Positions 1,724 to 11,851 of a stretch of DNA of 64,000 nucleotides are shown here, piece after piece. The notes beneath the pieces were generated by a model. That model did no database searches. It had not been told where the DNA came from and was given only the letters and a program-made list of their open reading frames with translations. A program made the position numbers and the translations under genes. The DNA lies in the NCBI RefSeq assembly GCF_012849095.1, contig NZ_CP051680.1, forward strand, positions 1,240,001 to 1,304,000, read 5' to 3'. Origin of the DNA: Cohnella herbarum (lineage in GTDB: Bacteria; Bacillota; Bacilli; Paenibacillales; Paenibacillaceae). The stretch's first letter is position 1; each line of letters begins with the position of its first letter.

Positions 1724-1781
1724 GCGCCTCGTATGATGGGGGTGTCACGGGTCAATGCCCTAAAACCCATCATGGAGGCGC
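1724..1781 (+). promoter_or_regulatory. Hairpin sequestering the transposase ribosome binding site
   Basis: GCGCCTC (1724-1730) pairs perfectly with GAGGCGC (1775-1781), and GATGGG (1735-1740) pairs with CCCATC (1766-1771), enclosing a 25-base loop. The right arm contains the GGAGG ribosome binding site used by the ATG at 1787, so a transcript entering from outside would be poorly translated. This is a known strategy of insertion sequences; its use here is inferred from the pairing. Confidence 0.55.
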
Positions 1782-1786
1782 TTAAA

Positions 1787-3064
1787 ATGAAGTCTACTCG
1801 AAACGACGCTACAAATCAACGTATTGAACGAATTACCAGTCATCATGCAATCGTAGGGATCGATATCGCTAAAGATGTACATGCCGCACAGGTTACGGAT
1901 TTTCGCGGGCGGACGCTAACGCCGCGCCACGTTTCCTTTACGAACACAGAAGCCGGATTCCAGAAGCTGCTCCATTGGATGCAGGAGGCGGGGGCCAAAC
2001 ATGGCAAAACTTCTTTCCTTGTCGGCATGGAGCCCACAGGCCACTACTGGCATAATCTCGCTGACTGGCTGCTAAAGCAAGGCATCGAGGTCGTGCTGGT
2101 GAACCCGGTAACGACGCATCGCAATAAGGAAAACCGCGACAACAGTCCATCTAAGAACGACCCGAAGGACGCGCTCGTCATCGCCGATGTCGTCAGCCGA
2201 GGCTACTACACAAACTACGCGCCGCAAGAGCCTGTATTTGACGGAATCAAGGCCGCGATGAGCGCTCGGGAATACTGGGTGGGGCAGTCCATCGCCTTAG
2301 GTAATCGCATCGTGCGTTGGATAGACTTGTACTTTCCTGAGTTCCGAAGCGTATTCCTAGAATGGGACGGTGTCCGGTCGTTAGCAACATTAAAGGCTTT
2401 TCCACTGCCTGTCGATCTACAGCAACTGAATGCTGACGAGGTGATGGAGGGATGGCGAAGCCAGGGGATGCGACGCGTAGCTGGAGCCAGTGGCAAAGCA
2501 AAGGCTGTAGAACTGCTGAACGCGGCAGCACACAGTGTTGGGAAATCCAATACAAACGATGCCGCGCGGCACGATATCTTTCGCCTTTTGCATGTCTACA
2601 AAGAGACGCAACTCATACTCGAAGAGATGCAGCGAGAGATAGAGGCGCTCTTGGAGCAGGTGCCCGTTGTGCAGCAACTCCGCAGCTTACACGGTCTAGG
2701 CACGATCACCATTGCCTCTTTGCTTGGCTGCGCAGGCGGTCTGCATCACTACGCCCATGGAAGGCAACTGCTGCGCCGAGCCGGTCTCAATCTGGCGGAA
2801 CGAACATCGGGAAAACACAAGGGCCAGATTAAGCTCTCCAAGCGGGGCGACAGCATGCTGCGCAAGTATTTGTACTTAGGGATGCTGAGCTTAGTGCGGC
2901 AGAATTCAGACTTCAAACATTGGCACGCCCGTAACCAGCTTAAAGGCATGTCGAAGATGTATTCCATCTTCAAGCTCATTGGAAAGCTCGCACGCATTTT
3001 AATTGGCATGATTCAACGTGGAGAAATGTATAGCAGCGGATCGCAAGATACGTTGGTCGCGTAG
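1787..3064 (+). CDS. IS110-family DEDD transposase/recombinase
   Basis: The 425-residue protein is full length for the family. The N-terminal RuvC-like DEDD domain shows D26 in GIDIAKD, E82 in GMEPTGH, and D125 and D128 in NDPKDALVIAD. The C-terminal Transposase_20 region holds HGLGTITIASLLG and the Ser-containing TSGKHKGQIKLSKRG segment near residue 350. These enzymes cut and rejoin DNA at sites chosen by a bridge (seek) RNA from the element's own non-coding end. I place the start at ATG 1787, behind GGAGGCG at 1774. An in-frame ATG at 1733 lies inside the hairpin and has no good ribosome binding site. The gene appears intact, so the element may still be active. Confidence 0.9.
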   Translation: MKSTRNDATNQRIERITSHHAIVGIDIAKDVHAAQVTDFRGRTLTPRHVSFTNTEAGFQKLLHWMQEAGAKHGKTSFLVGMEPTGHYWHNLADWLLKQGIEVVLVNPVTTHRNKENRDNSPSKNDPKDALVIADVVSRGYYTNYAPQEPVFDGIKAAMSAREYWVGQSIALGNRIVRWIDLYFPEFRSVFLEWDGVRSLATLKAFPLPVDLQQLNADEVMEGWRSQGMRRVAGASGKAKAVELLNAAAHSVGKSNTNDAARHDIFRLLHVYKETQLILEEMQREIEALLEQVPVVQQLRSLHGLGTITIASLLGCAGGLHHYAHGRQLLRRAGLNLAERTSGKHKGQIKLSKRGDSMLRKYLYLGMLSLVRQNSDFKHWHARNQLKGMSKMYSIFKLIGKLARILIGMIQRGEMYSSGSQDTLVA

Positions 3065-5593: not shown

Positions 5594-6424
5594 CTACTCC
5601 GCTAGAGAGGCTTTTACTTGCGGCATCGGCTTTGCGTACATTTTATTGAGTACAATCGTTTGTACGATAATAAATATACCGCCAACCGCCCAATATAACG
5701 GCAACGCGGCCGGCATTGCAAAAGAGAACATACCCATCATAATCGGGGACAACAATCCAATGAAAGCCAATTGGTTGTTCTGATTTTGCTGATATTGCGA
5801 CGAAACGGACTGCGATACGCGGAATTGAACGTAATAAACCGCAGCTGCAATAAACGGCAATATCATATCCGGTTTCCCCAAGCTAAACCATAAAAAGTCA
5901 TGGGCTGCAATCTCTGGCGTACGACGAATAGCGTAATAGAATGCGAGAGTGATCGGCCATTGGATAAGCATCGGCAAACAGCCTATATTTAAGGGATTGA
6001 ATTGGTGCTTCTGGTAGAGCTGCATCATCTCGGCTTGCTGTTGCTTTTTGGCTTCGGCGCTAACGTCGTTCTTATACTTCATCTTAAGTTCGTTTAACTC
6101 CGGCTGGAGGACGGCCATTTTTTCCTTCATGGCTATTTGTTTCTTCGTTTGATTCATCATGAGCGGCATAATCGCGAATCTAATGATCAAGGTCATCAGA
6201 ACGATCGATAAACCGTAGTCTCCGTGAAACGCATTCGCGAAAAATTTGATCAATATCGAAAACGGATAAATAAAGTAGTGGTTAAATATCCCATGCGATT
6301 CGGAATTAATCGGGTTTGACGGGGATCCTGCCGAGCATCCGCTGAGCAGAAAGACCGGAATCATTCCGATTAATAGGACGAGAATATGTTTCGCCATTTT
6401 TTGTAGCTTCAATATCTTTTTCAC
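5594..6424 (-). CDS. yidC: Membrane protein insertase YidC/Oxa1 family (lipoprotein form)
   Basis: This 276-residue protein inserts and folds membrane proteins, alone or with SecYEG. A lipoprotein signal ends in LLSGC with the modified Cys at residue 30. The insertase core of five membrane segments begins around residue 55 (DYGLSIVLMTLIIRFAIMPL), followed by the charged cytoplasmic hairpin rich in Lys and Gln (KEKMAVLQPELNELKMKYK). The start is GTG 6424-6422, with AGGGAGG at 6431-6437. That ribosome binding site and the start codon are buried in a stem formed with the end of the upstream small ORF. The set-up resembles B. subtilis yidC2 (yqjG), which is induced when the main insertase SpoIIIJ is impaired. 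Confidence 0.93.
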   Translation of the reverse strand: MKKILKLQKMAKHILVLLIGMIPVFLLSGCSAGSPSNPINSESHGIFNHYFIYPFSILIKFFANAFHGDYGLSIVLMTLIIRFAIMPLMMNQTKKQIAMKEKMAVLQPELNELKMKYKNDVSAEAKKQQQAEMMQLYQKHQFNPLNIGCLPMLIQWPITLAFYYAIRRTPEIAAHDFLWFSLGKPDMILPFIAAAVYYVQFRVSQSVSSQYQQNQNNQLAFIGLLSPIMMGMFSFAMPAALPLYWAVGGIFIIVQTIVLNKMYAKPMPQVKASLAE

Positions 6425-6476
6425 AATAGTCCTCCCTAATTGAATGTATGAATATCAATGTGGGAAAGGACTATTG
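6424..6476 (-). promoter_or_regulatory. Translation-control stem-loop covering the yidC ribosome binding site and start
   Basis: On the transcript the 5' arm (6476-6462) is CAATAGTCC, then UU as a bulge, then UCCC. The 3' arm (6436-6424) is GGGA followed by GGACUAUUG. That makes 13 base pairs with one 2-base bulge and a 25-base loop. The 3' arm includes the yidC Shine-Dalgarno and the G of the GTG start. The 5' arm consists of the last sense codons (Asn-Ser-Pro-Phe-Pro) of the upstream ORF, so a ribosome halted a few codons earlier would open it. Confidence 0.8.
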
Positions 6477-6703
6477 GCATCTTCATCAGGCGCTTCTTTT
6501 CGTCGGGCGGCGCGTGCTATCCAGCGCTGAATACCGTTGGGGTGCGCTTGTCTGGCAGGTACAAACAAAGTTGAACCGGCGGCGGCAGCTTTACGACTCC
6601 AGCGAATCTCTTGCGTAGAAAAGGAATTGATCGGAAGAAACAATACGGAAGAGATGAGTCCGATCGAGAGTGCTAGGTGAAGCAAGTCGAATAAATTGTC
6701 CAG
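6455..6703 (-). CDS. Small membrane-anchored upstream ORF, candidate MifM-type arrest peptide controlling yidC
   Basis: Read from a CTG at 6703 the product is 82 residues. This start sits 7 bases behind a consensus GGAGGTG (6711-6717); the next in-frame start, TTG at 6685, has no ribosome binding site. Residues ~7-25 (LLHLALSIGLISSVLFLPI) form one membrane segment. A basic, Ala/Arg-rich linker follows (RWIARAARRKEAP), then an acidic Asp-Glu-Asp at residues 73-75, 8-10 codons before the stop. In B. subtilis MifM, a 95-residue N-anchored protein upstream of yidC2, translation arrests at an acidic patch 7-10 codons before its stop, which frees the yidC2 ribosome binding site. The gap to yidC is 30 bases. 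Overall sequence similarity to MifM is not evident, so the assignment rests on architecture and pairing. Confidence 0.72.
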   Translation of the reverse strand: MDNLFDLLHLALSIGLISSVLFLPINSFSTQEIRWSRKAAAAGSTLFVPARQAHPNGIQRWIARAARRKEAPDEDANSPFPH

Positions 6704-6918
6704 CCAAGTTCACCTCCATCTGAGCCGTTTTGACAAGATTACGAATATTATATCATGTTTCAGAATTAAAAAAATCCGCAATAATCGGTAAAAGCAGAGC
6801 CTGCGCTGTTAGCATTTTCCAATAAACGTTAATGTTAAATATAGACAAAATAATTGTCGCTAGTGTAGATTATTAGATACCGAATTTGGAGAAGAGCATT
6901 ACAAGCGAGGAGGAGACT

Positions 6919-7651: not shown

Positions 7652-7981
7652 ATGGTTAAATATAATCTCGTCATAGATGTCGCAGGAGTTCTCCTATCGA
7701 ATCTTTCTCCAGGCTTTTGGGATGAACTCGCACAAACCGCAGGGGTTTCTTATGAACGGCTTAAATCCAAATTCAAACAAGAAGTCAGAGATTCATTATG
7801 GTGCGGGAAAATAAAAGAAGAAGACTTCTGGGAATGGATTTCTATTCGTTGACGATCAAGAGAAGAATCTGCTCCCCCAAGAGACCTGCAATGGGACACT
7901 TTAATTGCCGATGATAAAGGACTCTGGATTCAACGGTTGAATGAACGGTTAGCCGATCCCCTTACGGGTGATAATAAATGA
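7652..7981 (+). pseudogene. HAD-family hydrolase pseudogene with internal deletion and frameshift
   Basis: The first 66 codons (7652-7849) read as a normal HAD start: VIDVAGVLLSN holds the nucleophile region, then cap helices up to EEDFWEW. The frame then ends in TGA at 7850-7852. In the next frame, directly after, comes the family's motif IV, LFVDDQEKNLLPQE. A further frame change gives LIADDKGLWIQRLNERL, the usual C-terminal end, stopping at 7979-7981. About 100 residues of cap and core, including motifs II and III, are missing between the first two pieces. Both a deletion and at least one indel are needed, so this is a decayed gene and not a sequencing error. Confidence 0.75.
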
Positions 7982-10589: not shown

Positions 10590-11564
10590 TTAAACGGCTC
10601 GAGTGTACTTTTCTAAAGAATCAGTCGTTTGCTCCACCCACTTCATGAAAGCCGTTGGGGACCGTTTTCCCAGGCTTCTGTGCATGCGGCGGTTGTTGTA
10701 AAAATCAATGTAATTCCGTACAGCTTCGTGTGCCTCCTGAAAAGATTCAAAGCTCTCTTTTCCAAGCAGATCTCGCTCAAGGGTGGCATGAAAGGACTCG
10801 ATGTATGCATTCATATTAGGTGTCTTTGGAGGAATGCGCTCATGCATAATTCCCTCTGCTTCGCATAACTCTCCAAACGCCTTGCTGATAAATTGGGGGC
10901 CGTTATCGGTGCGAATGATCGGCTTGCTCTCTTCGGGCTTTAGACGTGACTGTAACGCCTTTTTCACAGCTTCGCATACGTGTTTGGCTTCGCAATTCGT
11001 ACCGATATGGATGCCGACGATACTGCGATCGTAAACGTCGATCATATCTGCGATGTAGAAAAACTGATCATACCCCGCAACGTATCCATACTTAATATCG
11101 AGCTGCCAGACTTGGTTGGAACCTGTTATCGTGTGATTGCGTGCTAGGCGCCTTGGATAGTGAACCTTCTTACGTCGTTGCGGATGAAGAATACCGAGCT
11201 TCTTACAGAGGCGGTACACTTTTTTCTTATTGATGATGAGTTGGCGCTGTACGTGTAAGCATTCTGTTAACAACAGATAGCCGTAGCTATGCTCTTCGCC
11301 AGACACCAGCTCCATTAACCACTCTTCAATCTGTGCATTACTTATTACGTTTCCGCAAACCGTTAGAGAATGCTTAGTTACAGGGCGTCCTCGGAGTGGC
11401 ATTTTTGTTTCTGTAGTTGTATCCTCACGTGATGCTTTCTTTCGTTCGTAGTACGTCGAAGACGCGGCCCCCACAATGCTTAAGATGTTAGCTACTGTAT
11501 GTCCCTGCTCAATGAACGTCTGGGCAACGTCGAGTTTGTCATTGAGGCAGGGTTCGTCTTTTTT
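10590..11564 (-). CDS. IS3-family transposase OrfB (integrase catalytic domain), made by -1 frameshift
   Basis: The frame encodes the DDE integrase core: first Asp in WQLDIKYG, second Asp in IRTDNGPQF, Glu in AYIESFH, and the closing NRRMHRSLGKRSP typical of IS3 OrfB. An HTH_21-like region (HSYGYLLLTECL, VYRLCKKLGI) precedes the core. No good independent start is visible at its 5' end. The frame is entered from orfA by -1 slippage at A6G on the minus strand (11564-11558), the usual IS3 signal, giving an OrfAB fusion. Confidence 0.9.
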   Translation of the reverse strand, partial: KKDEPCLNDKLDVAQTFIEQGHTVANILSIVGAASSTYYERKKASREDTTTETKMPLRGRPVTKHSLTVCGNVISNAQIEEWLMELVSGEEHSYGYLLLTECLHVQRQLIINKKKVYRLCKKLGILHPQRRKKVHYPRRLARNHTITGSNQVWQLDIKYGYVAGYDQFFYIADMIDVYDRSIVGIHIGTNCEAKHVCEAVKKALQSRLKPEESKPIIRTDNGPQFISKAFGELCEAEGIMHERIPPKTPNMNAYIESFHATLERDLLGKESFESFQEAHEAVRNYIDFYNNRRMHRSLGKRSPTAFMKWVEQTTDSLEKYTRAV

Positions 11565-11851
11565 ACGAGTTCGCGCAGCACCTCGATCTCTAACTCTTTT
11601 TGCCCTAACGCCTTTAATGCACGCTCGTACTTTTCTTCCAGATCTGCAAGTCGCTTGGACTCCATAACTCGTTCGTCGATCGTTGGCAATGAATCTGCCC
11701 CAAACGTCTCTTGATATTCCACTACCCATGCTCTAATTGTTTTCGGAGTCACGTCATACTTTCTGGCCAGCACGCCTGCTTTCATTCCCGCAAGAGCCTC
11801 TTGTGCTGCTTTGTAACGTACTTCCTTAAAGGCATTATTTCGCTGTCTCAT
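11492..11851 (-). CDS. IS3-family OrfA (helix-turn-helix and leucine zipper)
   Basis: The 119-residue protein has an N-terminal helix-turn-helix (GMKAGVLARKYDVTPKTIRAW) and a C-terminal coiled coil (LADLEEKYERALKALGQKEL) that mediates multimerisation. It binds the element's ends and acts as regulator on its own or as the N-terminal half of OrfAB. The AAAAAAG slippery heptamer lies in the codons for Val-Lys-Lys near residue 98. The start ATG 11851 follows GGGGGGCGAGCGGAA. Confidence 0.88.
   Translation of the reverse strand: MRQRNNAFKEVRYKAAQEALAGMKAGVLARKYDVTPKTIRAWVVEYQETFGADSLPTIDERVMESKRLADLEEKYERALKALGQKELEIEVLRELVKKTNPASMTNSTLPRRSLSRDIQ

Follow-up and report, generated by a model that had tools for sequence, protein, structure and literature searches.

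A candidate MifM-type arrest peptide, divergent in sequence, upstream of a second yidC gene in Cohnella herbarum and other Paenibacillaceae

The analysed stretch of DNA, referred to here as the window, comprises 64,000 nucleotides of the Cohnella herbarum contig NZ_CP051680.1 and carries on its minus strand a gene for a YidC/Oxa1 family protein of 276 amino acids (yidC2, 5594..6424), which starts with GTG and is the second yidC copy of the genome. Inspection of the frames places the other of the two copies elsewhere in the genome, in the order rpmH-rnpA-yidC-jag, which we take to be the typical spoIIIJ setting and on that basis call the copy spoIIIJ-type. Directly upstream of the secondary yidC lies a small open reading frame (uORF; minus strand, 6455..6703) of 82 codons, with a CTG start at 6703-6701 and a TGA stop at 6457-6455, as the preliminary description of the locus had proposed. 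Its Shine-Dalgarno (SD) site GGAGG (minus strand, 6713..6717) ends 9 nt before the CTG; the consensus ribosome binding site described earlier is therefore present, although the spacing of 7 bases given for it would apply only if GGAGGTG were counted. A candidate −10 box, TATAAT (minus strand, 6747..6752, within TGaTATAAT at 6755-6747), is seen in the sequence about 43 nt before the CTG, and the same hexamer occurs at most 80 nt upstream of the uORF in 10 of 11 Cohnella loci versus 34 of 85 loci overall. Elsewhere in the window, two frames (1733-3064 and 10590-11729) resemble insertion-sequence transposases by eye, and a 66-residue frame at 7652-7852 resembles the beginning of a longer gene that soon loses its reading frame.

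The predicted peptide has a single hydrophobic stretch near its N-terminus, a basic linker and an acidic C-terminal region, an anatomy that agrees with the one first outlined for it. The hydropathy window places the membrane segment LLHLALSIGLISSVLFLPI at codons 7-25 (minus strand, 6629..6685; mean Kyte-Doolittle value 2.17), and the part between the end of the segment and the acidic patch carries a net charge of +7. Alignments and the substitution ratios of codons 57-76 delimit a conserved core IQRWIARAARRKEAPDEDA at codons 58-76 (minus strand, 6476..6532), with the strongly conserved consensus I..WI....RRKEAPD[DE]D, of which the Trp is lost in some genera. The acidic patch Asp-Glu-Asp occupies codons 73-75 (minus strand, 6479..6487), that is, positions 10 to 8 before the stop in the translation, and both D73 and D75 are invariant in all 11 aligned Cohnella sequences. 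The distance from the membrane segment to the patch is 50 residues in the window and varies within the narrow range of 44-56 (median 50) over 86 loci. The charge is −2 before the segment and +2 in the 25 residues that follow it; across the loci the N-terminal tail is negative in 86/86, and its charge is exceeded by that of the following 25 residues in only 62/86, so that an N-out/C-in topology set by these charges is not clear. Searches of Pfam and NCBIfam returned no match for the peptide above the cut-off, and a search against the PDB sequences likewise gave none.

The end of the uORF is predicted to fold back onto the start of yidC2. The 5′ arm of the stem (minus strand, 6462..6476) consists of uORF codons 76-81, and the 3′ arm (minus strand, 6424..6436) holds the yidC2 SD sequence GGAGG (6431-6435) together with the initial G of the yidC2 GTG codon (6424). 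Positions 6476-6468 and 6465-6462 pair with 6436-6424 to give 13 base pairs with a 2-nt bulge, and five further pairs form within the loop, which bears out the 13-bp stem described previously. The 105-nt piece containing it folds with −23.9 kcal/mol (z −3.4), and none of 200 shuffled sequences is as stable. In single folds of the 86 loci, the yidC2 GGAGG is paired at no fewer than four of its five bases in 76. Among 38 loci from distant genera (alignment A3), the structure, drawn from A3's own consensus, has nine pairs, and 95.3% of the cells can pair; double changes are found at seven of the nine pairs and affect 50 cells, compared with 13.5 (sd 2.6) for shuffled data, and pairing falls to 28-69% when the partner is displaced. 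In the 29 loci of the window's own clade the stem is kept, with 97.1% of the cells pairing, and shows no covariation because the SD arm does not vary there, and the claim of covariation therefore rests on A3. The comparison of relatives that had been suggested as a check on the stem thus supports both its concealment of the SD and its covariation across distant genera, though not covariation within the clade of the window.

A second YidC, 71-100% identical, is encoded in 11 of the 37 Cohnella genomes, and in each of these 11 the uORF is found directly upstream with an E-value of 4e-15 or better, whereas in the 26 genomes lacking the second yidC no match to the uORF better than E 0.004 was obtained. 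The expectation that relatives with the gene would keep the small frame and its acidic patch accordingly holds in 11/11 cases. The unit is thus patchy inside one genus, its yidC being absent from 26/37 genomes, and in the genome G008 the yidC2 frame contains one internal TAG. A profile built from the 11 Cohnella uORFs matches 195 of the 394 genomes of the family, spread over 14 of its 19 genera, at a cut-off of E up to 0.01, a count in which weak matches were inspected only in part. A yidC gene follows on the same strand in 88 of 90 parsed loci. The two exceptions are G205, where the uORF is broken and no yidC was found in the fetched stretch, and G181, where a whole uORF precedes an interrupted yidC2 in which similarity ends after about 20 codons. 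With a second profile and a cut-off of E up to 0.05, 58 of 398 genomes of the class are matched, 28 inside the family and 30 outside it; 13 of the outside loci were fetched, and yidC lies downstream in 11 of these, in one only partly. All such counts come from related genomes, and the conservation they record is not independent. The set of 86 loci is the 90 without G205 (broken frame) and G277, G368 and G392 (motif filter); G157 was re-framed for the counts, and G277 and G392 are included in the profile A2 used below.

The closest known counterpart of the peptide is MifM of Bacillus subtilis. According to PMC4423224, its arrest occurs with D89 to S92 in the P-site and requires R69, I70, W73, I74, M80, N81 and the DEED stretch 86-89, and R79 and N81 contact Arg66 of uL4. 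When four Bacillus MifM sequences are compared by hhalign with the Paenibacillaceae profile A2, the resulting alignment begins at the linker Trp, extends as far as the acidic patch and covers 51 columns (P 8.7e-5, probability 60%); its score of 27.2 is reached by 0/400 column shuffles over the whole (maximum 19.9) and 0/400 within parts (maximum 21.9). In this alignment R68, P72 and D75 of the uORF face R79, P83 and D86 of MifM, and K69-E70 stands in place of M80-N81, where the Glu could, by its charge, contact Arg66 of uL4. Residues I58, W61 and I62 are the counterparts of I70, W73 and I74, the last aligned only with the wider profile A5, and MifM R69 has no counterpart in the window, where G57 is found. 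The A5 profile scores lower against the Bacillus sequences than A2 does (P 4.4e-4, probability 34%), and single-sequence comparisons are weaker (P 0.0014 and 0.0044).

A peptide that works like MifM without descending from it, having arisen independently as did CliM in Clostridia, is an unlikely origin, albeit one with several points in its favour. MifM ranks second in the PDB profile search with an E-value of only 0.68 and is missed there by the A5 profile, the hhalign probabilities are no higher than 60% and 34%, the acidic patch lies one or two residues closer to the Trp than that of MifM, and CliM is described in the excerpt of PMC13183943 as the same logic arising with a different motif. 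Against it stand the score of 27.2 when the maximum over 800 shuffles is 21.9, the fact that the linker Trp, I70, W73, R79, P83 and the acidic patch all align, and the linking sequences in other families of the Bacilli. Since the uORF is profile-similar to MifM, yet does not keep two arrest determinants and its homology is not certain, it is best filed as a divergent variant rather than a plain member, with a common origin that the sequences suggest but do not place beyond doubt. The earlier remark that the primary sequence looks different from MifM is apt as regards the loss of R69 and M80-N81, but the two are not wholly unlike, given that the A2 profile outscores every one of the 800 shuffles.

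The start codon of the uORF is unusual and appears to be the CTG. A TGA three codons upstream (TGA ACT TGG CTG) closes the frame, so that CTG is the sole NTG before the TTG at codon 7. Assigned by SD distance, the starts in the 86 loci are CTG in 39, TTG in 28, ATG in 15 and GTG in 4; in the sister genus g8 the start is CTG in 32 of 33, and 22 of the 32 g8 rows usable for this comparison have an in-frame stop immediately upstream. The 11 Cohnella loci divide into CTG 3, ATG 3, GTG 4 and TTG 1. In these start counts G025 was scored as GTG for its better SD distance and G250 as TTG by the script, yet both have a CTG at the homologous place. The yidC2 genes behind begin with ATG in 75/86 by a rough rule, the first NTG after the SD, which misplaces some Cohnella starts, including that of the window. 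Codon 1 is NTG in 38/38 aligned sequences, with all four NTG codons occurring, and such retention of TG beside a variable first base is characteristic of a start codon. The pattern does not extend to codon 7, which is NTG in 31/38.

Translation from the TTG at codon 7 instead is improbable. In its favour are entries of the public databases, in which this branch is scarcely represented: a g8 peptide query retrieved 9 proteins out of 5.8 billion, 6 of which have 76 residues, and the three of these that were examined (P0007, P0019 and P0021) begin at codon 7. Besides the less constant NTG there, such a start is opposed by the constraint on codons 2-6 (pN/pS 0.34, and 0.16 in g8), by an SD 27 nt away compared with 9 nt for codon 1, and by the position of codon 7, with which the membrane segment already begins. 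A mini-ORF with a TTG start, lying out of frame in the leader, was also considered and rejected, as it is absent from many rows. A weak start codon such as CTG probably keeps the traffic over the uORF low and the stem mostly closed. With so unusual a start codon, gene finders tend to miss or shorten the frame, and the CTG-started uORFs show how peptides of this kind escape annotation; a genus-wide CTG start with a stop directly before it would furthermore offer a clear natural example of bacterial initiation at a codon other than AUG.

Selection acts unevenly along the frame. Over 38 gap-free sequences of the 44 g1 and g8 members, pN/pS is 0.24 for codons 57-76, 0.38 for codons 2-26, 0.59 for the linker and 1.47 for the tail at codons 77-82; the first of these values, together with the yidC found behind the uORF in 88/90 loci, indicates that the frame is more than a chance one. 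Synonymous change is low in the tail (pS 0.17 versus 0.40 for codons 2-76), which is what control by RNA pairing would produce. Within Cohnella alone the core has a pN/pS of 0.14 and the tail 0.88, and the pS of 0.43 versus 0.57 makes the tail signal less telling there. The same figures bear on the view that no nascent chain jams the ribosome, the rate of uORF translation alone opening the stem and the conserved residues serving some other purpose. A stem and an overlap would indeed suffice for plain translational coupling, but amino-acid constraint is strongest precisely in the core at codons 57-76 while the stem-forming tail has a pN/pS of 1.47 (0.88 within Cohnella), and the spacer length is narrowly kept, which leaves this view highly improbable. 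That the uORF encodes a small membrane protein with a function of its own beside YidC2 would fit the conserved membrane segment and C-terminal core but is scarcely credible for a peptide whose tail is free to vary and reads into yidC2 in 40/86 loci, and which occurs and decays together with that gene.

Two layouts of the junction are found among the 86 loci. In 46, the window included, the uORF ends before the end of the yidC2 SD, and in the other 40 it crosses the stem, the SD and the yidC2 start to end 9-53 codons inside the gene, always in frame +1 or +2 relative to yidC2 and never in the yidC frame itself. As a count of stops for the overlapping class is circular in frame 0, the openness of the path from the core to the SD is the fairer measure, though still one taken over related and not independent genomes: 34 of the 38 distant loci have this path open in the uORF frame, compared with 17 and 4 in the other two frames. 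We infer that the overlap may stop finishing ribosomes from restarting at yidC2.

On the ribosome side, the excerpt of the B. subtilis study names Met90 of uL22 as setting the species specificity of MifM arrest, and poor arrest is anticipated there for lineages in which this position is R, Q, K or H (PMC4423224). By alignment, position 90 is Gln in every one of the 19 Cohnella genomes examined, of which 8 possess yidC2 and 11 lack it. The uL22 hairpin of these 19 genomes is altered in common, reading QPRSQGRAF in place of the RPRAMGRA of most of the other genomes, whether yidC2 is present or not. Among 30 other uORF-bearing genomes the residue is Met in 25 and Gln in 5, and no simple match between it and the type of core was seen in the 30. 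Two g8 genomes that were examined combine uL22 Met90 with uORF cores close to those of Cohnella. Either this branch of uORFs does not need Met90, or the arrest in Cohnella is weak. A near-identical core, if functional, on ribosomes with Gln90 in Cohnella and Met90 in the two g8 genomes would provide a natural test of species specificity.

Taken together, the uORF very probably encodes a divergent sensor of the MifM type that monitors membrane insertion by YidC. When YidC capacity falls short, the membrane segment of the peptide would stay uninserted and exert no pull on the chain, and the core would then bring the ribosome to a halt around codons 75-80; thus stalled, it would block pairing of the 5′ arm, allowing yidC2 to be translated. 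With insertion working, the pull would end the jam, and the ribosome would leave and the stem close. This reading is favoured because the uORF co-occurs with the second yidC in 11/11 versus 0/26 genomes of the genus, is matched in 195/394 family genomes and has yidC behind it in 88/90 loci, because the core is the most constrained part, the spacer is confined to 44-56 residues, the SD is paired in 76/86 loci and the stem covaries in 38, and because the profile resembles MifM (P 8.7e-5) and a spoIIIJ-type copy is present besides yidC2. Counted against it are the loss of R69 and M80-N81, the loss of the Trp in some genera, the PDB E-value of 0.68 and the miss with A5, as well as Gln90 in Cohnella uL22, the unclear N-out charges, the lack of covariation in the clade of the window and the kinship of the genomes. 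The preliminary description, which saw a divergent arrest peptide of MifM logic, is supported as far as conservation of the frame, the patch and the stem can show, with the amendment that the peptide would be a relative of MifM and not an unrelated one.

More tentatively, and with the balance of probability against the combination as a whole, these features may be parts of one arrangement. The branch would have changed its hold on the tunnel, with K-E for M-N at the constriction, making the arrest free of uL22 position 90, and control would be exerted at both ends, the conserved CTG or TTG start keeping the traffic low and the out-of-frame run through the hidden SD, seen in many genera, leaving the hand-over to yidC2 to jammed ribosomes alone and denying it to those that finish the frame. 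Owing to its CTG starts, much of the branch would also have been missed by annotation-based surveys. The survey of 2024 (PMC10987492) took its ORFs from annotation and gives 572 sequences for MifM, drawn from 592 Firmicutes genomes, and because it began from annotated ORFs, CTG-started frames would be absent from it or shortened, while Paenibacillaceae members with ordinary starts may be included. Compared by hand with the MifM filter in the excerpt of that survey (PMC10987492), the uORF lies upstream of yidC, has an N-terminal localization signal and shows a strong local negative charge at residues 70-100. The literature search found no paper joining MifM with Paenibacillus and none joining "arrest peptide" with "CTG start codon", and a search on Cohnella, YidC and leader peptide gave no Cohnella paper among the matches listed. 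What is new here are the CTG start kept in the sister genus, the out-of-frame run into yidC2 in 40/86 loci and the Gln90 of Cohnella uL22, and co-occurrence, constraint and covariation would extend the MifM-like ribosome-jamming sensor to the Paenibacillaceae.

Several known arrest peptides share the general position of the uORF. ApcA of Actinobacteria is likewise found upstream of a second yidC and has an N-terminal membrane segment, but the RAPx, RGPx, RAPP and RAGP motifs near the C-terminus of ApcA and the RAPP-like (RQH) peptides, as excerpted from PMC10987492, are missing from the uORF of the window. CliM (uC_KYxIW) of Clostridia also precedes a secondary yidC, has an N-terminal membrane segment and shares the stem over the yidC2 start, whereas its KYxIW motif, given in the excerpt of PMC10987492, does not occur in the translated uORF. 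The likeness is greatest to B. subtilis MifM (YqzJ), which similarly lies upstream of a second yidC (yqjG, the yidC2 of B. subtilis), begins with a membrane segment, has a stem that hides the yidC2 SD and possesses in I70, W73, R79, P83 and its acidic patch residues with counterparts in the uORF. The spacers are also similar, the 50 residues of the uORF (44-56 in 86 loci) lying close to the median of 54 from segment to arrest site that the excerpted survey reports for MifM (PMC10987492). The two differ in that the uORF has 82 codons and a CTG start versus 95 codons for MifM, in that its acidic patch follows directly after the Pro and is shifted towards the Trp by the one or two residues noted above, and in that many of its relatives, unlike B. 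subtilis MifM, overlap yidC2.
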